From Blepharisma japonicum (taxonomy: Eukaryota > Ciliophora > Heterotrichea > Heterotrichida > Blepharismidae): a stretch of DNA of 64,000 bases. Where the stretch lies: assembly GCA_949751835.1 (NCBI GenBank), contig CATKHK010000047.1, positions 62,001 to 126,000 of the forward strand, written 5' to 3'. The notes under the pieces were generated by a model. It saw nothing but the letters and a program-made list of their open reading frames with translations, was not told where the DNA came from and did no database searches. Position numbers and translations under genes: made by a program. Below are positions 24,202-60,107 of this stretch, piece after piece. The first letter of the stretch is position 1; each line of letters opens with the position of its first letter.

Positions 24202-27200
24202 ATGTCAAAAAGTGAAGTAGAAGAAGAAAGGAAACGTATCCTTTATATCAACGGAGCTGAGATAAATGACACTTATAAATACCCAACAAATTACGTGAGC
24301 ACTACAAAATACAACGTTTTAACCTTCCTGCCAATAAGTTTATTTGACCAATTCAAGCGTATTGCGAACATTTACTTTCTAGTTACAGCAATTCTTCAGT
24401 CAATTCCCCAGATTTCTCCTTTAAATGCTTTTAGTGCTATAGCTCCGTTAGTGTTCGTATTAGCTGTTAGTATGATCAGAGAAGGTGTAGAAGATTATTT
24501 ACGATATAAATCAGACCAAGAAACAAATTCTACTAACACCCTCATCTATAATAAAGGTTCATTTGAAAATGCTACTTTTAAAGATGTGAAGGTTGGAGAT
24601 CTAGTCAAGGTGTTAAAAGATGAGTCTTTTCCTTGCGATTTAGTCATGCTTTCAAATTCAAGCGAAAATGGTATCGCTTATATTGAAACGTCTACTTTAG
24701 ATGGCGAAAAAGCTCTTAAACAGCGACAAGCTTTTGGCCCTACCTCAACATTAGTAAAAGATGAGGGGATTATAAGGATTTTTAATATGATTGAATGCGA
24801 CACTCCAAATCCTAGGATTTATCAGTTCAGCGGAGCTATTGAGTATGAAAATAAAAGGTATCCATTGGATAAAAGCCAAGTTTTACTTGGAGGAGCTTTT
24901 TTGAGGAACACCAGTTGAACGATAGGGGTGGCTGTTTATACAGGAAATGATACAAAATTGAGGCAAAATCTGATGGGGAGGAGGTTTAAGCAGAGCCAAG
25001 TGGAAAGAAAAGTAAATAGATATATTATTTATATCATTGGGATTCAGTCACTTATGTGCCTCGCTACTGCAATTTTAGAAGGACTATGAACCAGCAAACA
25101 CTGGAAAAAGCATGAATATCTCCACGGTTTAGATTATTCTGCAAACATGCAAGGGTTTCTAGGGTATTTTACTTATTTTCTCTTATTAAACACAATGCTT
25201 CCGATTTCCCTTATAGTTTCGCTAGAAATTCTTAAGGTTATCCAAGGATATTTTATGAGCAAAGACAGTGAAATGCATAGCAAGCTCAGAGATAGACCCT
25301 GCAAGGTCTCTTCATTTAGCTTAAATGAAGAGCTTGGAATGGTCCAGCATATTTTTTCTGATAAAACTGGGACTTTGACCTGCAACAGGATGGAATTCAA
25401 ATTCTGCACAATTGGAACCAAAATGTACGGGGATAATAGAAGCCTTATGAATTTAGAATATGTTCAAAAACCTAGTTTCTCTAATAAAGAAATTGCATTT
25501 TCCTTTGATACCAAAGTGATTGAGCACGACACTTTTTTTTCCAAAACCCCAATTTCTATAAAACCTATAAAAATTACCCGAAATTTTGAGCTGCAAAACC
25601 AGCAGCAAATCAATGAATTTTTTTTAAGGTGTCTTTCCCTCTGCCACGAATGTCTTATAGAAAATAATGACTCTGGAGTGATTTCATATGTAGGACAAAG
25701 CCCTGATGAAATTGCATTAGTAGACAGTGCTAGCCGAATTGGGTTTAAATACACAAAAATAAAGGACGGAATCGTAGATTTACAAATTGGGACTAGTCTT
25801 GATTTTTCTATAGAAAAATACGAAAAAATCTGCACCCTCGAATTTGACTCTGACAGAAAAAGAAATTCAGTTATTGTAAGAGATTTATCTACAAATGCAA
25901 TATTTTTATTTATTAAAGGTGCAGATGATATGATTAAAACAAAGCTTGCAGAAGACAGTAGTAAAGAAGTTTTTGAAGTTGTTTCTGCTAATCTGCAGAC
26001 TTTTGCAGAAAGAGGGTTAAGGACTCTTATGGTAGGTTTTCGGATTATTGAGGAAAATGAGTTCAGCTCTTGGAAATCAAAATATGATGTAGCCAGCACT
26101 TCAATTGAGGGTAGAAACCAAAAAATCAGCCAAGTCGCTGATGAAATTGAAAAAAATATTTTTTTGTTAGGATGCACAGCTGTTGAGGATTCTTTACAAG
26201 AAGATGTGCCTAAAACTATTAATGATTTGCTTAGTGCTGGGATTAGTGTATGAATGCTGACTGGAGATAAGCTGGAAACTGCAGAAAATATTGGAAAAAC
26301 CTGCTCTTTAATTGATTCTAATACCACAATTGAAAGATGCTCGTCCGGGATTTTAGAAAATTGCTATGAAAAAATGGTAGAAATTAAAAAAAGTTTTAAA
26401 GAGTCAATAAAATCAGGAAAACCTGTAGCGTTAATAATCCAAGGAGATTCCCTTGAAATTATTCTATTTGACCGCAAAAACCCTGAAAAAGTCTTAAAAT
26501 ATCCTGAATTATCAGGTACAACCAACTCTATACAAAAAGCGACAAAAACCCAAAAAATATTTTTAAAGATTTCCTCTATGTGCAAAACTGTTATTTGTTG
26601 TAGGGTAACTCCTGGGCAGAAACAAGAGGTTGTTAAATTAATGAAAGACAATTGTGGGTATATTACTTTAGCTATTGGAGATGGAGCCAATGACGTAGCT
26701 ATGATTTTAGAAGCACATGTAGGGGTTGGCTTATATGGAGAAGAAGGCATGCAATCTGTTCAAGCTAGTGACTACGCTATAGGGGAATTTAAATTTTTAT
26801 GAGAATTGCTGCTTGTTCATGGTAGGTTTAATTATCTCCGACAAAGCGAAATGATTATGTATTTTTTTTATAAAAATTTAGTCTTCACAATCCCTCAGTT
26901 TTTTTTTGCATTTTATTGTGCTTATAGTGGCCAAACAGTTTATGATGACTGATATATTACATTTTATAATATGGTTTTTACAGCTTTACCTTTAATTGTA
27001 AAAGCTTTATTAGAAATTGATATTATTGTCCCTAGGCGGCATGAAGTGCAGTCCATCGCTAGTATGAATAGCACTGAAGAAAACCAATTAAGGTCAACTC
27101 ACCATCATAAAATTAGGGATTTAGTACCAAAATGTTACAATACAGGGCGATGCAATGAGATTTTTACACCTTATAATTTTTCTATATGAATTGGCAACGG

Positions 27201-27684
27201 ACTTTTCCATTCATTTATTGTTTATTTTATTCCCTTTTATGCGGCTGAGTATGGAATGTTAACTGAAGATGGCTTAAATCATGATTTGTGATCTTTTTCT
27301 ATTACTTCTTTTACCTGTGTGATTTTAATTGTAAATTTGAAGCTGTCGTTACATACTAGACATTGGACTGTTTATAGCGTTTTTTCCATATGTATTCTAA
27401 GCTTGCTGCTGTATTTTGGGTTTATTCTTGTATATGACATCTTCACGGAGCTGCCAGACTATTTATCGATTTATCAGATTATTGCGTCGCCTTATTTTTA
27501 TTTAAGTATACTTACAACGCTTAGCCTGGTCGCCAGCATTGATGGTGGGATTCATTTTTTCAGAAGAATTTTCCATCCATCAAAGCCTGAAATCCTAATG
27601 AATTATGCGTTAAAAGCGAAAAATGTATCGTCAGTTCACCCTGCAGAAAATTTATCCTCTTATAGGCAGGTTTCTCAGAGTTAG
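24202..27684 (+). CDS. P4-ATPase, phospholipid flippase
   Basis: A 1,160-residue P-type ATPase of the lipid-flipping P4 class, read through seven TGAs as Trp (24916, 25087, 26251, 26800 and three in the last third). N-terminal [18 protein letters not shown] and [11 protein letters not shown] are P4 hallmarks. The phosphorylated Asp is D387 in DKTGTLTCN. The nucleotide domain has QSPDEIALV and LFIKGADD. The hinge is [17 protein letters not shown] directly after a TGA-coded Trp684, and [11 protein letters not shown] completes the P domain. The A-domain loop is LDGEKALK (residues 166-173), DGEK where most P4 pumps have DGET. It moves phospholipids to the cytosolic leaflet, normally with a CDC50 partner that is not in this window. 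Confidence 0.95.
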
Positions 27685-31672: not shown

Positions 31673-32320
31673 ATGTGGATTCTATTCATTACTTTGGGCC
31701 TCGCAAATGCTTCTTTAGATGCCACTCCTCAGTATCCTCTATGGCCAAATGTTTTTACACAAACCTTCAATGAAACTCTCTATTACCCAGAATTTGGCAA
31801 TCAAACTACCACTGGTACTTATTACTACGATTGGACCAACCAAATGTACCGTATTGACAGAGCAAATGGTAGATTTGACAGATATTGCGGCCTTGTTGGG
31901 TTTAGAGTCTTAACTAATGCTCCATGCAGCCACATCGTTGTTGGAGGAAACAGATTCTTGTATTACCCTAATGATGGTACTTGCTGCTTCTGCTGTAATG
32001 CTGCTCAAGGCTGTGGAGTCCTAAAGCCTACATGGCTTGATAATGCCACTTTTATTGACACTGAGACCCATATGGGAGTTCAAGCTTATAAGTGGAATAA
32101 ACAAGGGCTTCAAAATAATTTCTATTTCGAGACTGTAGCAGCAAATCCTTCAAGCAGGGTTATGCTAAGCATTTATCAAGAGCCAAATGACTTAATGGAC
32201 TTCCATCAAATCACTTATAGTGTTCCTAGTGGAATTTTTGATCTTCCAAAGACTTGCAGCCTGAAAACCGTGTGTCCTGAAATTTCTACATGCACAGCTG
32301 TCAGAAACGCTAGTAACTAA
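31673..32320 (+). CDS. secreted Cys-rich protein, paralogue A1
   Basis: A 215-residue protein with a signal peptide (MWILFITLGLANA). The mature part carries the blocks TGTYYYDWTNQMYRID, then RANGRFDRYCG, then APCSHIVVGG, then CCFCC, with about nine Cys, so it is probably disulfide-rich and exported. The overall pattern (YDY-like strand, R-x-D, spaced Cys) is loosely like ependymin-related secreted lipid-binding proteins; that is a guess. It is about two-thirds identical to the gene at 34547, and each is followed by a tRNA-Trp gene about 100 bp downstream. Confidence 0.82.
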   Translation: MWILFITLGLANASLDATPQYPLWPNVFTQTFNETLYYPEFGNQTTTGTYYYDWTNQMYRIDRANGRFDRYCGLVGFRVLTNAPCSHIVVGGNRFLYYPNDGTCCFCCNAAQGCGVLKPTWLDNATFIDTETHMGVQAYKWNKQGLQNNFYFETVAANPSSRVMLSIYQEPNDLMDFHQITYSVPSGIFDLPKTCSLKTVCPEISTCTAVRNASN

Positions 32321-32421
32321 TAGTTTCTAATAAAAATTAATTTTCTTATTATCCCATACTGTTTATTATCCCATACTGTAAAAAGTATATTTAAGAGGGA
32401 TGTGAACATATAAACTAAGCA

Positions 32422-32494
32422 GGACCCATAGCACAACTGGTAGTGCAACGGACTCCAAATCCGCAGGTTGGGCGTTCAAGTCGCTCTGGGTTCA
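32422..32494 (+). tRNA. tRNA-Trp(CCA), copy 1, 4-bp anticodon stem
   Basis: A 73-nt cloverleaf. The acceptor GGACCCA pairs with TGGGTTC, the discriminator is A, the D stem is GCAC/GTGC, the anticodon loop is CTCCAAA (anticodon CCA), and the T arm is GGGCG-TTCAAGT-CGCTC. The A box (TAGCACAACTGG) and B box (GTTCAAGTC) are present, and a T run (CTTTTT) follows for Pol III termination. The CCA end is not encoded. Position 27 is A and 43 is C, so the anticodon stem has only 4 pairs (28-31 with 39-42). The sequence is identical in all three copies. No intron. Confidence 0.96.
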
Positions 32495-32872
32495 CTTTTT
32501 ATGAATTTGTAAAAGAATACGGAATTCTTTTTCGAAGAAAAATTATCTGTTCTTGGAAAATATAGGCATCTTTTAATAAGCATTAAAATATATACAATCA
32601 GTAAAATCGTATCGCTAAAGAGGGGATTATTTTAGTTTTTTAAGGCTTTTTGTGGATTTCTGTTTAATAAACAGAGGAATGGCTGATTTATGGAAAGCAG
32701 TGATAAAAGTTGACATATGATATAAATCTTAAAGAATAAATTTTAAATAACTTGCAGATGTCGTTCTTTTTCTAAAATTAATAACGAAATCATTTTCGTT
32801 AAGTGCAATTTCTCATAGTTTTCATATCTTTCTATGCCAACTGGTGCGTTATATTTCCTCTATAAAATACTT

Positions 32873-33796
32873 ATGGGAATCAAGTCATCTAAGGAAGGAG
32901 GAAAGAAAAGAAAAAAGGTGCCAGATATATCAGTTTCTTTTGAAAATAGAATAAATACAAGTCCTCCTTTAACTATAAGCAATCATTCTGAGTTTGGCTG
33001 ACAATTAAAATTCGAGAAAGATAAGATCAGAACACTTGAGTCAGAACTCAAAAGTTGTAAACTAAAAATAGAAGTCCTTGAAGAAGAAAAAAAGATAACT
33101 TTAGAAAAGTATGAAAAGTACGAAGAATATAAATTTTTGTCAGAATATTATTTGAAGCAAATCGAAGAATATAAAAGTGCAGAAATTAAGCATGACGAAG
33201 AGTATATGAAGCTGCAGAATGTTTATGATGAGAAAATTGAATATTATAAAAATCAATTGAAAGAATATCAAAGTTCATTTAAATTGATGCGAAAATATGA
33301 GAAGTTTATAGAATCACAGAAAATTGCTCATAGATTGGATTTGCTTGATTTAGAAAAACGATTATTGGAGAGTAAAATCAAGGTTTTAAATTCTCCATCA
33401 AATTATGATATCAATAAAGAAATAGAAAAGGATAGAAATAGACTTCAAGAAATATATGATGAGGCTTTTATGAGTCACAAATATTTAGCAAACATACATT
33501 GCTTAGATGAAGAAAGCAGAGGTCATCTGATGATAGAAAAAGAAAGTAATCGGAAGACAAAATCAAAAGATTATAACATAGCCAAATGTATTGGATTTTA
33601 TGGAAAGCATGGAAACCATGGTCAAAGAAATTCTGAATCAACCAAAAGTCTCAGTTATTCAACCAGAGAATCAACAAAGACAATGCCTGAATCTGTAAGG
33701 CAGCCAAGCTTTTCTAGCAGAGATTCTCATCGTCTAGTGGCTAAATGTTTTGAATCCACCACAGAATCACGAGAAACTGAACATAGGATTCAGTAA
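32873..33796 (+). CDS. N-myristoylated coiled-coil protein (B1)
   Basis: A 307-residue protein starting MGIKSSKEGGKKRKK. Gly2 with Ser6 and a basic cluster is a good N-myristoylation plus polybasic membrane anchor. A TGA-coded Trp lies in SEFGWQLKF, 45 residues in. Residues about 50-180 are coiled coil, and the C-terminal third is Ser/Arg-rich and disordered. A standard-code search would start it only at 33137. Its promoter and first seven codons are duplicated at 33947-34111. Confidence 0.75.
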
Positions 33797-34546
33797 AAGG
33801 TACTATATAATTCTATAATTTCAAATTTCAATAAAAAATTAATTAATAATTGGATAAAATAGTATCACAATCAGGTTTTATATATGGCTTTCTCCTGATA
33901 TTTTCTTAAGAGAGCATCTCCCAATATCAATATGCCATCATAGGAGAAAGAATAAATTTTAAATAGCTTGCAGATATATTGTTTTTCTTAAATTAATAAT
34001 AAAATCCTTTTCGTTAACTTGCAATATCTTATAGTTTTAATATTTTTCTATGCCAACTGTTTGCGTTATATTTTCTCTAAAAAAAGCTATGGGAATAAAG
34101 TCATCTAAGTTTTTTACTTTAAACTTCAAATTTTAACAAGACAAGAAAATATAATTTTTGTCGAGATGGAAGCAATATTAAGCTATTTTCCTAATAAAGA
34201 TGGTCATGCTTTTATAAACTTAGGATCTCTTTAAATCAAAGTCAACTATGGATAAATAAGCTGAAAAGTTATCATCTTTTAAGTTTTAAGATTTAATCAT
34301 AATTAAATTTAGAATTTTAAAATTTAAGTTTTGAACTAGAAAACTGTAAACAGTCAATTTTACAATTTGAAATTTTCAATATCAAAATAACAATAAATAA
34401 TTAAATATTTGAATCATAATTTTTCTAAGCTTATTTATTAAAAAATCAAAATACAATATTTAGCTGCGCTATTTTTATTAGAAATCCTATCATTTTTATA
34501 AAATCTTGAAAAGTAAAATTTATTCACCATTTTATTATATCATAAA
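33797..34546. other. intergenic with duplicated relic
   Basis: 750 bp. It contains the B2 relic (next entry); the remaining 34112-34546 is A+T-rich with no gene. Confidence 0.6.
33947..34111 (+). pseudogene. relic B2: promoter and first codons of the coiled-coil gene
   Basis: This stretch matches 32731-32895 closely. The shared landmarks are AAAGAATAAATTTTAAATA, then CTTGCAGAT, then TTTCTATGCCAACTG, then ATGGGAATAAAGTCATCTAAG (start codon at 34089, coding for MGIKSSK). Similarity stops abruptly after the seventh codon, where the copy continues with a T-rich tract. It is a truncated duplicate. Confidence 0.88.
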
Positions 34547-35185
34547 ATGTGGATTCTGTTCATTGCTTTGGGTCTTGCTCACTCTTCCTTAGAGGATAGT
34601 CCTGAGCCTCCTCTTTGGCCTGATGTTTTTACTCAAACCTTCAACGAAAGTTGGTGGTATCAAGAATTTGGGACAGTTAATACTACTGGCACTTATTACT
34701 ACGACTGGACCAGCCAAATGTTACGTATTGACAGAGCTAATGGTAGATATGATGAGTACTGCGGCCTTGTTGGGTTTAGAGTCTTAACCAATGCTCCATG
34801 CACCCACTATGTAGTTGAAGGCAATAGATTCTTATATTATCCTAACGATGACACTTGTTGCTTTTGCTGCAATGAAGCTCAAGACTGTGGGATGCTTAAG
34901 CCAACCTGGCTTGAAAATGCTAGATTTACTGGCTCTCGCTATACTCCACAGAGTGAGACTTATACCTGAAATCTTCAAAATATTGACTATTTTGAGAGCG
35001 CAAATGTGTCGCCATCAAAGAGAGTTATGGAAAGCATTTACCAAGGATATACTGAATCAATGACTTTTCATAATATCACTTATAAAGTTCCTGAAGGTAT
35101 ATTTACCCTTCCAAATTCTTGTAGCCTGGAAGTTGTGTGTCCAGAGATTTCTAAATGCACAGCTGCCAGAAGAGTTAATAACTAA
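34547..35185 (+). CDS. secreted Cys-rich protein, paralogue A2
   Basis: A 212-residue paralogue of the gene at 31673, with signal peptide MWILFIALGLAHS and the same Cys blocks (YCG, APCTH, CCFCC, CSLEVVCPEIS). A TGA at 34967-34969 codes Trp in TYTWNLQN; the paralogue A1 has TGG at the matching place (YKWNKQG), which independently confirms TGA as Trp. Without recoding the gene would look truncated at 140 residues. Confidence 0.84.
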
Positions 35186-35276
35186 TATAAATTAGTTTTT
35201 AATAAAAATTAATTTTTTGAAGAAAGCATGCTTCAAATAGTATATTTAAGAGAAATAAGATAATTTAAACTAAGCA

Positions 35277-35349
35277 GGACCCATAGCACAACTGGTAGTG
35301 CAACGGACTCCAAATCCGCAGGTTGGGCGTTCAAGTCGCTCTGGGTTCA
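35277..35349 (+). tRNA. tRNA-Trp(CCA), copy 2
   Basis: Identical in all 73 positions to copy 1, including A27 and C43 and the TTTTT downstream. The leader (AAACTAAGCA) and the trailer are also shared with copy 1, so the two arose by segmental duplication together with the A gene. Confidence 0.96.
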
Positions 35350-36077
35350 CTTTTTATGAATTTTAAAAGAATATGGCTAATGAATTTGATAAAATTTCCA
35401 GCTAATTGCTACCGGAAATATTTTTTGAAGAAAAATTAGCTCTGTTTGTTTTGATTTTTATGAGAATTGTGAGAATTCTTCAATAAATCCTTTAAAAAAT
35501 TATTTAATTACTTATTAAGATTTCTAGAAAAATTCCAAATTTAAAAAGGTAAGAAAAACAGAATAATTTTGTATAGACAAAAGCGACATTAAGCCATTTT
35601 TCATGTAACGATTGCTATGCTTTGACTAGAACTTGCTAGCTTTTAAAATTTAATATTAAGCTGCACTGTAATTATATTTAGTGAAATTGAAAAATAATCA
35701 GTTTTTTATGTTTATGAATTTAAACGAAATTGATTCTTGGAATCTAGGATATTTTAATTCCAATATATAAATTTTATATCCATCTTTAAGGCTATTAATA
35801 TTTAGCTCTGAAAAGCTAGCCAACTACTGCAAAGATGCGGAAACTATATTGCAGGCACTAAAAGCAGGCAGGAAACAATAAATTTGCAATAAAGGACAAG
35901 CTAGAGTGTTTTTTCAAAAAAACCGATGATTTAGTCTCATCTTGAAATTCAAGAAAAATCTAAAAGAATTAAATAGGGGTTCACAAGAGATAAATTGAAG
36001 ACTTATGGGTTGATAAAAACACATAATATTTAGAAATTAGTTATATAAATAGCAGTAATGAGATTATTTTTTAAGCA
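35350..36077. other. intergenic between tRNA copies, decayed repeat
   Basis: 728 bp without an intact gene. Around 35550-35630 there is weak similarity to 34130-34210 (AGAAAA..AATAATTTTTGT, ATTAAGC.ATTTT, CATGCTTT), suggesting a third, eroded copy of the duplication unit upstream of tRNA copy 3. Confidence 0.45.
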
Positions 36078-36150
36078 GGACCCATAGCACAACTGGTAGT
36101 GCAACGGACTCCAAATCCGCAGGTTGGGCGTTCAAGTCGCTCTGGGTTCA
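36078..36150 (+). tRNA. tRNA-Trp(CCA), copy 3
   Basis: Identical in all 73 positions to copies 1 and 2, with the same 4-bp anticodon stem, a TAAGCA leader and a CTTTTTT terminator. No intact protein gene precedes it. Confidence 0.96.
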
Positions 36151-36238
36151 CTTTTTTCACTGTTAAATTATAATTAAGCATATCCCAAAATACTTGTTTT
36201 TTTAATTAATTATTTAGCAAATCGACAGTTTGAAGCTC

Positions 36239-40416: not shown

Positions 40417-41700
40417 ATGATTCATCAGAAATTAGTGCTTCAAAGGTTTTTTCCTGAATTTATAATAACGATTAATAAGGAAAGAAATTTTGGTAAAAGG
40501 TGGATTAATTATTATAATAAATATGCGCCCCAACTGTTTTTAGAAGCAATTCCTTTAAATAAGAGTGATGATATAGTTGTTAAGGTCTTCGAAGAAATAA
40601 GCAATTACTCTATCACTCCAACGAGTTTTCACGGCCGAAATATAAACTGCAATCAAAACATATACTATGCTTCGCAAGAACTCCGAAACTATAATAAAGT
40701 TTTAATAAGTAAGCTGCAGACTGCTGAAAGCTTATTAAAGGATAGTAATATTATTTTAGAGTTGCTGTTTAAAATAACATTTTTACAACTCGAGAAAAGC
40801 AAAAGCTATATAGCACAAACCATATTGCAAAACTATTAGAAGCAAAAATAATAGATTTTAAAAATCAATTAATAAAGTGCAGCTTATATGAGAAGCGCAT
40901 AGAAACTATCACTTTCAGCGGTACATATGATGGCATTTACCAGACTTTAAAAGAAATTCAGTTGCAAGATTTGCACTTAATGCTTCAGGGCTTAATAACA
41001 AGATCAAAATATATAATCAAGAGTTAAAGGAATTAGTTCTTATTAAACTTCTGAATCTAAATCAGATATCAAAAAGAGTGCAAAACGCAATAAAGAGGAT
41101 ATTGGCATTACTCTTAATCCTCTTGAAAACATTAATAATCAAGAAAGCTATTAACTCATTAGTATCAGACCAACATACAGCACTAATATACATCTTCGCT
41201 AGAAAAGGAAAAGGAAAATTATTATTGATTCAAACAATAATTTGCTTGAAACGCATACTGTTGTTTATATAAAATCTCTCCGAGCAACTATATAATTTTC
41301 GACCCAAGTAATTCTGACTTCAGCAAACACCTTGGATAGATATCAATAGAAAATTGTAGGTGAATTTATAAATCTTGACATTGTAGAAGAAGAATTACGA
41401 ATTTACACTCCAGAAAGCAAACAATTGTATCGATATCTATGCAAAGATACCATTTGCATTAAATAATATTGAATCTATAGATATAAAACATGCCAAAAAT
41501 TTAGAATTTTGAAAACAATTTCAAATAATGCAGATATATGCATTGAAATAGCTTTTTATGGGAGTAGTCTGCCTTTAAGAATAAAGCAATCATCAAGTAT
41601 GAATTTAGTAATATATGATTTAATAAAATGCATAAACAAGCAATTTAAAAGTTTAAAAATTTACCCAAGTCTTCGGTGAAAATATTGAATTAAGTTATTA
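40417..41700 (+). pseudogene. decayed coiled-coil-like gene
   Basis: An ATG at 40417 opens 140 codons (IHQKLVLQRFF onward). Coding-like sequence then continues in shifting frames: a second frame from about 40825 (LLEAKIIDFKNQLIK, then YEKRIETITFSGTYDG) and a third from about 41050 (SESKSDIKKSAKRNKED, then ENINNQESY). A later part is broken by several TAA/TAG (FINLDIVEEELRIYTP). No 15- or 16-nt GTA...AG intron repairs these breaks. It is best read as an inactivated gene of unknown family. The first 140 codons might still be expressed. Confidence 0.6.
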
Positions 41701-57122: not shown

Positions 57123-60107
57123 TTAAAAGGATTCACTACTTGAGCTTGAATTGAGGCCTATTTTTCTTGCTGGAGGGTCTCCCCACCTATTTTCTTCTGC
57201 CAAAATTTGGATATCATCACTGCTTTCGTCCGCTCTAAAAGCAGCGCTTATAGGCTGGAATGAGCTTTTAACAGGAGGGCCTCCTACATTTATCCCAGCT
57301 CCAGGTATTTGGGCTCTTGGCTGGCTTTCAACCGAAACACCTATAGATCCTTTGAACTGAGGACTAGCGAACTGTGGTTTTTGCTCTTCCGCTGGCCTTG
57401 AAAATCCTATCCCTCTGCCCATTCCTCCTATTCTTGGTTGTGGGTCTCCATATATAGGACGTGGATCATCTGCTTCGTATACAGGTGCCAAGGACTGTTT
57501 TTCTTGTATAGGATTTTTCATTACAGGATCATTAGGCTGCCTCGCGAAGTCCCCTGGCCTTGAAAATCCTGCTCCTCTACCCATCCCTCCTATTCTTGCT
57601 TGTGGGTCTCCATATATAGGTTGTGATTCATCTGCTTCATATACAGGCGCCATGGACTGTTTTTCTTGTATAGGATTTTTCATTGCAGGATCAGTAGGTT
57701 GCCTTGCAAAGCCTGGGAGTTGTGGCTCTTCAATAACGCTAAGTTTAGCTTGAGGTTCCCTTCCAAATGGAGAAGCTCTAAGGTGGGAAGGAATTTCTCG
57801 TCCTGCAGGGTTGAATTTTCCTTTAGGAGCGTCTGATTCTACTTGGATAGCGGAAAAGCCTGAAGGAACATTTACACTGCCTTTTAGCTCAGGCTCAGCT
57901 TTAGGTGGAAATCCAGGTCTCATTGAAGGGATATTGACGCTCGTGTCGGGATTTCTAGAATCAGCTCTGGAGGAATCTACACTTATATCAATTTTCTGGA
58001 TTCCTGGCCTCATATCAGGCCTTCCAAAGCCTGAATTTTCTGCTCTTGGACTTTGCTTTTCAGGTATTTCAACTGCTCTCTGCCCTCCAAGATTTCCTCT
58101 AGTACCAAATGCTAGGTTTTCCATCCTTGGGCTTTGCTTTTCAGGCACTTCAGGTCTATATCCTCCAGGATTCCCTCTTATTTCAGGCTGAGGATTTGGC
58201 ACCCCAAATCTCCCTTTTAGCCCAGGTGACCCTTCTTCTGGCAATCTTGCTTCAGATCTAAACTCAAATTTCTTAGGTTCTTGATTCATATTTTTTACCT
58301 CAAATCCATTAGGATTTCTAACCCCAAATCCTTGGAAATCTTCTCCAGGTCTTGATGGGAATTCATTTTTGCTATTTATATTATCAGTTGTGACATTTTT
58401 GTTATCTTTTTCATCTAGCTTAATATTGATCTCTTCATGAGACATCGGGTCATGTTCTTCATGGCTGCTTCCGAACTGTTTTTCATTTTTGAATTTTAGT
58501 ATAATAAAAACCCATATCAGTATCATAATAATTCCCATAAAAATACTGATTACAGCTACTGCAGCAAGCTCTTTGTGACTACTGGATACTCTAATGTATT
58601 GAAAAGCCCCAGAGCCATTATTGCTGTTACTATCAGTAGAAGGTGTTGTGGTCCCTGATAGTTTAGCATCACCAGTAGTCAAAAATGTTTTTGTTGAAGA
58701 TAATGAGCTGGTAACTGTCGCTGAATAGGTAATTGCCATGTCTTCATTATTATAAGAAGCTCCTTTATAGCTGTATAAGTTTATATTAAAAGTGTAGTTC
58801 GTAAGCTTTGCAAGTGTGGCAATATTGACTTGGAAACTGATTTTTTGAGTAGAATCAGTCACATTTGTAATAGGTAAAGCAGTGCCTCCACTTGTGACAT
58901 TGGTAACCATGTAGTCATAGGTTGAACCATAAGTAGCTTTAAAATCAAAGATTAAGGTATCATAACTGTCGGAAATCCCAAGATTTTGCAATGTGAATGC
59001 TAATGTAGAATACGCTACAGGGCTTACAGCGTCCCCACAATTTGTTCCGCAGTCAACTTTTACACTGCTAGTAAGGTAGAGTTTTATATCAGGGGTACTA
59101 GTCATAACAAGCTCTTTAAAAGTAGCAGTATGGGTCTTACAAGTAGAAAGTATTGAATCTTTTGCAGTATTTTTGTCCCCTATTGCAGCTTGAAATGAAA
59201 TAATGGTATTGTTCATACCATAGTCTATTATAGCTCCATTTACAGTAGATTTTGCAATATCATTGCTAGTTCCATAGGTCATTGAACTCAAAGAAGTCGC
59301 GTTTGTTAATAAATTCGTATAATAAGAGTAATAATTTTCTTGACCTGAATAAGCTTTTAACATATTTTCGCTTGTGTATGAGTAAGGATAAAGATACTGA
59401 TTTCCATAGTTATCATAATGAATCCACATTTTAAAAGTCCCTTCGCTTGCTATTAATGACTTTATTGCTGAAGACTCTTTTTCAGAAAACTCAGCCGTTC
59501 CACGATAAGTATCACTGCAATTATCACCTGAAGATCCTACTTCATCATAATGCCAATAAGCCCCAAAATTTCTATTAAGATCTACTCCTGATTTAGTAGC
59601 ACTGCATAAAAATTACTCTGTTGTACATGTACTTTTGGTGTTTTTTAAATATGTCACAAAGCTACTGGTAGTTGCATAGTTTTCGTATGATTTTGTATAT
59701 GCGTCTATATTAATCACTGGAAAGAAGTAGAATATGGAGGTTTGAAGTAAATAAACGGTGTCAGCACTTTCGTCATTGATCATGTAATTTAATAGATATA
59801 AGACTTGGGTAGCTGATAAAGGCTGAGTCGTTGTATGCATCCCTGTAACCAAAATTTTTTGTCTTATTGAGGAGTCAAGGCCATCTAAGTAATATTTACC
59901 TGTTGTACTCACTTTGGCTCCTTTTATATCGACGCCGCCTTCAGTTTGGCCTGCAGTAATCAAGGTCACGTTGGTGGAAACTAATTTGCTGAGCATTGCA
60001 TTAATTTCCGTCATGTTAAAGTAGCCTCCTAAGTAACCTGTGGCCAAATTTGAGTCATCCCAGGAATAAACGATGCTGAAGAAAAGAAAAATCAAATGAA
60101 TTGCCAT
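57123..60107 (-). CDS. membrane-anchored M14 pseudo-carboxypeptidase
   Basis: Two exons joined across a 15-nt intron (59602-59616) encode about 989 residues. A signal peptide (first 15) is followed by an M14 carboxypeptidase-like domain (about 20-320), a beta-rich linker, a membrane helix (510-532) and a 457-residue Pro/Gly-rich cytosolic tail. Family landmarks are present: H91 (first zinc ligand), GVDLNRNFG (N173, R174), YRGTAEFSEKES, and H225 in MWIHYDNYGNQYLYPY (third zinc ligand). Two key acids are not: the zinc-binding Glu three after H91 is T94 (HTTT), and the catalytic Glu (family FxFELR) aligns with Q301 (ISFQAAI). It is therefore predicted inactive and perhaps a peptide-binding receptor. 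The tail has two 54-residue repeats. Confidence 0.86.
57385..57708 (-). repeat. two 162-bp coding tandem repeats
   Basis: Within the cytosolic tail of the pseudo-carboxypeptidase two adjacent 162-bp (54-codon) units differ by few changes; shared landmarks are FARQPxDPxMKNPIQEKQS, APVYEAD and IYGDPQxRIGGMGRG. A shorter EKQSPRxEN motif is also doubled upstream. Confidence 0.9.
59602..59616 (-). other. 15-nt intron
   Basis: On the minus strand GTAATTTTTATGCAG. Removing it joins TTD to ATKSGVDLNRNFG, the conserved carboxypeptidase block. Confidence 0.9.

Follow-up and report, generated by a model that had tools for sequence, protein, structure and literature searches.

How can a stop codon be read as tryptophan when the tRNA-Trp genes at hand all carry the ordinary CCA anticodon? 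The question is raised by a 64-kb stretch of the Blepharisma japonicum genome (the window, meaning the whole stretch of DNA that was analysed). ARAGORN and Rfam agree that it holds exactly three tRNA genes, and ARAGORN types all of them as tRNA-Trp(CCA) (Table 1). Each scores 62 bits in Rfam, where the gathering score is 29, and the three are identical across 74 nt. By sequence reading, the acceptor stem has 7 bp, the D stem 4 bp and the T stem 5 bp, with discriminator A73; a C and then a run of five to six T lie 3' of each gene. The anticodon arm is A-CGGA-CUCCAAA-UCCG-C, in which A27 stands unpaired opposite C43 and is followed by the pairs C-G, G-C, G-C and A-U. In the minimum-free-energy fold, a cloverleaf, four anticodon-stem pairs form and 27-43 stays open; this fold makes up 15% of the ensemble, and the same prediction gives a different centroid. 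Note that A.C can make a wobble-like pair once the A is protonated, and '4-bp' may overstate how far the stem is open. The description given in the earlier note (three identical tRNA-Trp(CCA) genes, A27 and C43 unpaired, a 4-bp anticodon stem and T runs) is confirmed in full by ARAGORN, Rfam and the letters themselves.

Table 1. Positions of the features discussed (plain numbers are window positions; the prefix C marks other contigs of the assembly)
Feature	Position	Strand	Details	Identified by
P4-ATPase (lipid flippase) gene	24202-27684	+	7 in-frame UGA	alignment to phospholipid-transporting ATPase IC (8ox7)
ORF upstream of copy 1	31673-32320	+	215 aa; hydrophobic N-terminus; Pfam search without match; Trp codon UGG at 32093-32095	
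Paralogous ORF upstream of copy 2	34547-35185	+	212 aa; in-frame UGA 34967-34969	
AAGCA leaders of copies 1, 2, 3	32417-32421, 35272-35276, 36073-36077	+	directly 5' of gene	
tRNA-Trp(CCA) copy 1	32422-32494	+	A27 = 32448; anticodon 32455-32457; C43 = 32464; T5 terminator 32496-32500	ARAGORN, Rfam, sequence reading, fold
tRNA-Trp(CCA) copy 2, identical	35277-35349	+	A27 = 35303; C43 = 35319; T5 35351-35355	ARAGORN, Rfam, sequence reading
tRNA-Trp(CCA) copy 3, identical	36078-36150	+	A27 = 36104; C43 = 36120; T6 36152-36157	ARAGORN, Rfam, sequence reading
15-nt GT-AG intron candidate	59602-59616	-	in-frame TAA; joins two ORF halves of metallocarboxypeptidase-like gene	
tRNA-Ser(CGA), U27.U43	C2:806306-806367 and C100:42190-42251	-	C34 tRNA; 4-bp anticodon stem, as in tRNA-Trp	
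tRNA-Sec	C60:226544-226629	-	75.6 bits, cut-off 47	
SepSecS match	C173:18481-19665	+	425 bits; match contains a TGA and a TAG	
SelD match	C2:736620-737438	+	213 bits, cut-off 125	
eEFSec match	C111:29219-29425	-	75.5 bits, cut-off 27	

Two lines of evidence support the claim, also made in the earlier note, that UGA means Trp here. The flippase aligns to phospholipid-transporting ATPase IC with an E value of 1.7e-210, across five of its UGAs, three of which face Trp. Furthermore, the two ORFs that flank tRNA genes (143 of 215 columns identical in the protein alignment) display a natural UGA/UGG exchange at one Trp, the UGA of one being aligned to the UGG of the other. We also compared blocks of five proteins, which were picked for holding a Trp and set against one homologue each. 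Their 14 UGA sites include 12 with a partner residue (Trp at four, Phe at two, Tyr at one and other residues at five); seven of the 14 face a non-aromatic residue (five) or a gap (two), which speaks against this reading. The 12 UGG sites of the same blocks face Trp five times, Phe twice and another residue five times. Within this small sample, UGA appears to behave like UGG. Beyond the compared blocks lie two UGA sites of the flippase (W996, W1030) and one each in P0004 (W340) and P0002 (W9). Stop-codon counts were rejected as evidence on the genetic code, since ORFs that end only at TAA or TAG follow from the table 4 reading itself. UGA of B. stoltei is described as reassigned to Trp (PMC9942806). 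The two paralogous proteins, for which a Pfam search gave no match, share a hydrophobic start and a cysteine cluster, and each is encoded just 5' of a tRNA-Trp gene.

Telomere repeat, 15-nt intron, AT-richness and UGA = Trp together very probably mark this DNA as part of a Blepharisma nuclear genome. The window has a GC content of 28-41% per 2-kb stretch, and the gene around its intron candidate is one that we take, from the stretch GVDLNRNFG, to be metallocarboxypeptidase-like. A Blepharisma nuclear genome is expected to be about 66% AT, with introns of 15-16 nt; those of B. stoltei are predominantly 15 and 16 bp (PMC9942806). The Blepharisma telomere repeat given in the same paper, CCCTAACA, was found at two of the ten contig starts inspected, as a clear array on the window's own contig (C47) and as a short run on C4.

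A BLAST search of the whole assembly (45.2 Mb, 224 contigs) with the tRNA-Trp gene returned six matches, all of them 100% identical over 74 nt; the three beyond the window lie on contigs C49, C14 and C6. The earlier note had called for a genome-wide look at position 27-43 of the tRNA-Trp genes, and by BLAST all six of those found have the open A27.C43. They also have in common the AAGCA leader, which is absent from the 30 leaders of other tRNA genes that were examined, although a single tRNA-Val leader has AAGC at its end. The six are separate genes: when 45 nt of 5' flank were compared without the AAGCA, only 2 of the 15 pairs proved clearly related, one made up of copies 1 and 2 and the other of copy 3 and the C14 gene (0 of 500 shuffles for each). 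AAGCA stands before all six genes although most of the flank sequence beyond it is unrelated. Copies 1 and 2, each behind a paralogous ORF, are a local duplication. Boxes resembling TATAAATA occur ~23-36 nt upstream of several tRNA genes (five loci outside the window, and window positions 36042-36051) and are possible candidates for an upstream Pol III element.

Identity among the copies had been taken as a sign of selection or recent conversion. Such identity is no special evidence, since identical copies also occur within other tRNA groups: 5/5 of the genes examined for Gln(UUG), 4/4 for Arg(UCU) and 4/4 for Lys(CUU). For the same reason, we reject the argument that identical tRNA-Trp copies prove selection for UGA reading.

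We consider it very likely that these ordinary nuclear tRNA-Trp genes read both UGG and UGA as Trp, the open 27-43 position enabling the acceptance of UGA with no need for a UCA anticodon. A tRNA-Trp(CCA) would read UGG as its cognate and UGA as a near-cognate (C34.A3). With 27-43 opened, the anticodon stem would be looser at its upper end, and UGA would accept the tRNA frequently enough for it to outcompete the release factor. According to PMC13092985, UGA read-through increases with a 4-bp tRNA-Trp stem when tested in trypanosomes, yeast and E. coli, and we infer that A27.C43 may be the causal change in B. japonicum.

The release factor itself offers another explanation, in which the main cause is an eRF1 that no longer recognises UGA; the short tRNA stem would then help only a little, or would have arisen merely under relaxed selection. 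Changes in eRF1 accompany the short stem in Blastocrithidia (PMC12153298), and the mismatch in tRNA-Ser(CGA), discussed below, shows that 27-43 can drift. However, assays point to a B. japonicum eRF1 that continues to recognise UGA along with the other two stops (PMC4967479, figure legend), which would place the burden of UGA reading on the tRNA. Stentor and Fabrea, where UGA is only a stop, are moreover described as being without a 4-bp tRNA-Trp(CCA) (PMC13092985, citing Swart et al.). We therefore regard a primary role of eRF1 as unlikely. Four loci with an eRF1_1 domain were located in the assembly, on contigs C4, C121, C29 and C9.

An open 27-43 pair is unusual in this genome, yet it is not unique to tRNA-Trp. 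A standard pair is present in 57 of 59 other nuclear tRNA genes with a readable stem (19 isoacceptors), a set in which 31 genes of 11 isoacceptors favour intact stems, most of them being the best-scoring entries of a ranked list. The other 28 (five tRNA-Tyr and 23 Leu/Ser genes) were taken with no selection on the stem, from A-box/B-box patterns with a gap of 38-64, a spacing that picks up only genes whose variable arm is long or that contain an intron, and that passes over even tRNA-Trp. Both exceptions are tRNA-Ser(CGA) genes, with U27.U43, so that the top pair of the anticodon stem is open in two of 20 isoacceptors, Trp counted in. An open 27-43 pair was accordingly rejected as proof, on its own, of a recoding tRNA, since tRNA-Ser(CGA) has one in the same genome. 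Left out of this control were the tRNA-Phe and tRNA-Leu(UAA) of C157, both paired at 27-43; this 35-kb contig, on which a nad7-like gene (Complex1_49kDa) adjoins the tRNA-Phe, is probably mitochondrial.

The tRNA-Ser(CGA) would be a eukaryotic candidate for the device studied in PMC13092985, as a lead only, because the assembly has a tRNA-Ser(UGA) gene as well. The bacterial test reported in that paper was itself mixed, with five tRNA species behaving as predicted, four in the opposite way and three showing no difference. Among the matches listed for the literature on tRNA-Ser, the phrase '4-bp anticodon stem' was not found. Other departures from the standard stem or gene structure were also observed. 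In all three tRNA-Met genes examined the lowest pair of the anticodon stem, 31-39, is open (U.U), as is usual in eukaryotic elongator tRNA-Met. Five tRNA-Tyr(GUA) genes, on C18, C59, C65 and C74, have a short intron of ~10 nt; ARAGORN misreads the structure of these intron-bearing genes, and a manual parse was used.

A separate tRNA-Trp(UCA), either nuclear and missed or mitochondrial and exported, could also read UGA, in which case the 27-43 mismatch would be neutral. Ciliate mitochondria encode such a tRNA (PMC4967479), and the assembly includes the probably mitochondrial C157. The earlier note had seen no tRNA-Trp(UCA), and our search, which is incomplete, likewise found none. BLAST with tRNA-Trp returned the six CCA copies and no UCA form, and a UCA anticodon was absent from ARAGORN scans of 38 and 54 loci (92). 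A UCA-anticodon pattern gave 97 matches versus 158 for its reversed control, and thus no excess; 30 of the 97 were examined in context, and none is a tRNA. The covariance search for tRNAs scored 63 of 2483 candidates. Given the lack of any UCA form among the matches and loci covered, we consider a separate tRNA-Trp(UCA) very unlikely. Also very unlikely is that C34 is edited or modified in the mature tRNA, becoming either U or a C able to pair with A, and thereby reads UGA. C-to-U editing of tRNA-Trp is known from kinetoplastid mitochondria (PMC13092985), but in Condylostoma, also a heterotrich, RT-PCR clones and small-RNA reads are reported to contain no significant anticodon editing (PMC4967479).

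Reading of UGA by the short-stemmed tRNA-Trp(CCA) does not mean that this tRNA is its only reader. It is probably not, because the assembly also contains a tRNA-Sec together with three genes of the selenocysteine pathway, SepSecS, SelD and eEFSec. Judged from these matches, a selenocysteine toolkit exists alongside UGA = Trp, and the codon probably carries two meanings as a sense codon. The proposal of the earlier note, that the tRNA-Trp(CCA) genes are the UGA decoders of this genome, is supported in substance: UGA = Trp is supported, all six genes found have the 4-bp stem, the incomplete search gave no UCA form and the mechanism is published for the genus. It needs correcting in that, given the Sec toolkit, tRNA-Trp is probably not the sole reader. 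UGA is reported to serve as both Trp and Sec in Condylostoma and Parduczia (PMC4967479) and in Blastocrithidia (PMC12153298). For Blepharisma, we found no such report among the titles and abstract openings listed.

UGA is used sparingly as a Trp codon. Counted from the first ATG in 40 ORFs that were chosen mechanically and left uncurated, with short introns in place, UGA occurs 39 times and UGG 112 times, an A-ending share of 26% (39/151 UGR). The A-ending shares of the comparison pairs in the same ORFs are 78% for AAR, 77% for GAR, 64% for CAR, 70% for UUR and 68% for AGR. Half of the ORFs (20/40) have no UGA at all. ORF 40906-41394 was judged not to be a gene and was dropped; with it, and without ATG trimming, the counts are 51 UGA and 117 UGG in 41 ORFs. 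Such avoidance suggests that UGA is read less efficiently than UGG. It would fit a reader of lower efficiency or residual termination at this codon, and might also stem from recent capture of the codon.

That a 4-bp tRNA-Trp(CCA) reads UGA is already known for Blepharisma. The short-stemmed tRNA has been reported in Blepharisma and Loxodes (PMC13092985 and PMC12005148, both citing Swart et al.), and from the description in these citing papers the published Blepharisma tRNA-Trp resembles ours in anticodon, shortened stem and UGA = Trp. Blastocrithidia nonstop and Condylostoma magnum (Kachale et al. 2023, in PMC13092985) likewise have the top pair open, a CCA anticodon, UGA = Trp and no UCA tRNA found. 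This matches what the earlier note had said of read-through promoted by a 4-bp tRNA-Trp(CCA) in these two genera. PMC13092985 gives the open pair of these two species as 26C.42U, whereas here it is A.C. Condylostoma also has UGA as a stop at gene ends, in contrast to B. stoltei, where the codon is described as reassigned to Trp (PMC9942806). In Amoebophrya sp. ex Karlodinium veneficum (PMC12005148), a 4-bp stem likewise goes with no UGA-cognate tRNA found, but only one of seven Trp genes has it, with U26 and C42, compared with A and C in all six found here. What is new in our analysis is that all six copies found in the assembly are alike, that UGA is little used, that a Sec toolkit occurs together with UGA = Trp, and that tRNA-Ser(CGA) has a 27-43 mismatch too.

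These details allow a broader and rather doubtful conjecture. An open 27-43 pair in C34 tRNAs might be a general device, by which tRNA-Trp(CCA) reads UGA, and tRNA-Ser(CGA) reads UCA as well as UCG. A weak Trp reader would then leave room for tRNA-Sec on selenoprotein messages, UGA becoming Trp or Sec by competition between two tRNAs of very different affinity, with low UGA use as the price.

For Blepharisma, the six tRNA-Trp genes found across the assembly confirm independently that no new anticodon is needed for a stop codon to become a sense codon. With UGA use 2.5 to 3 times below that of the A-ending codons of other pairs, the cost of near-cognate decoding becomes testable, as does the question of how Trp and selenocysteine share one codon.
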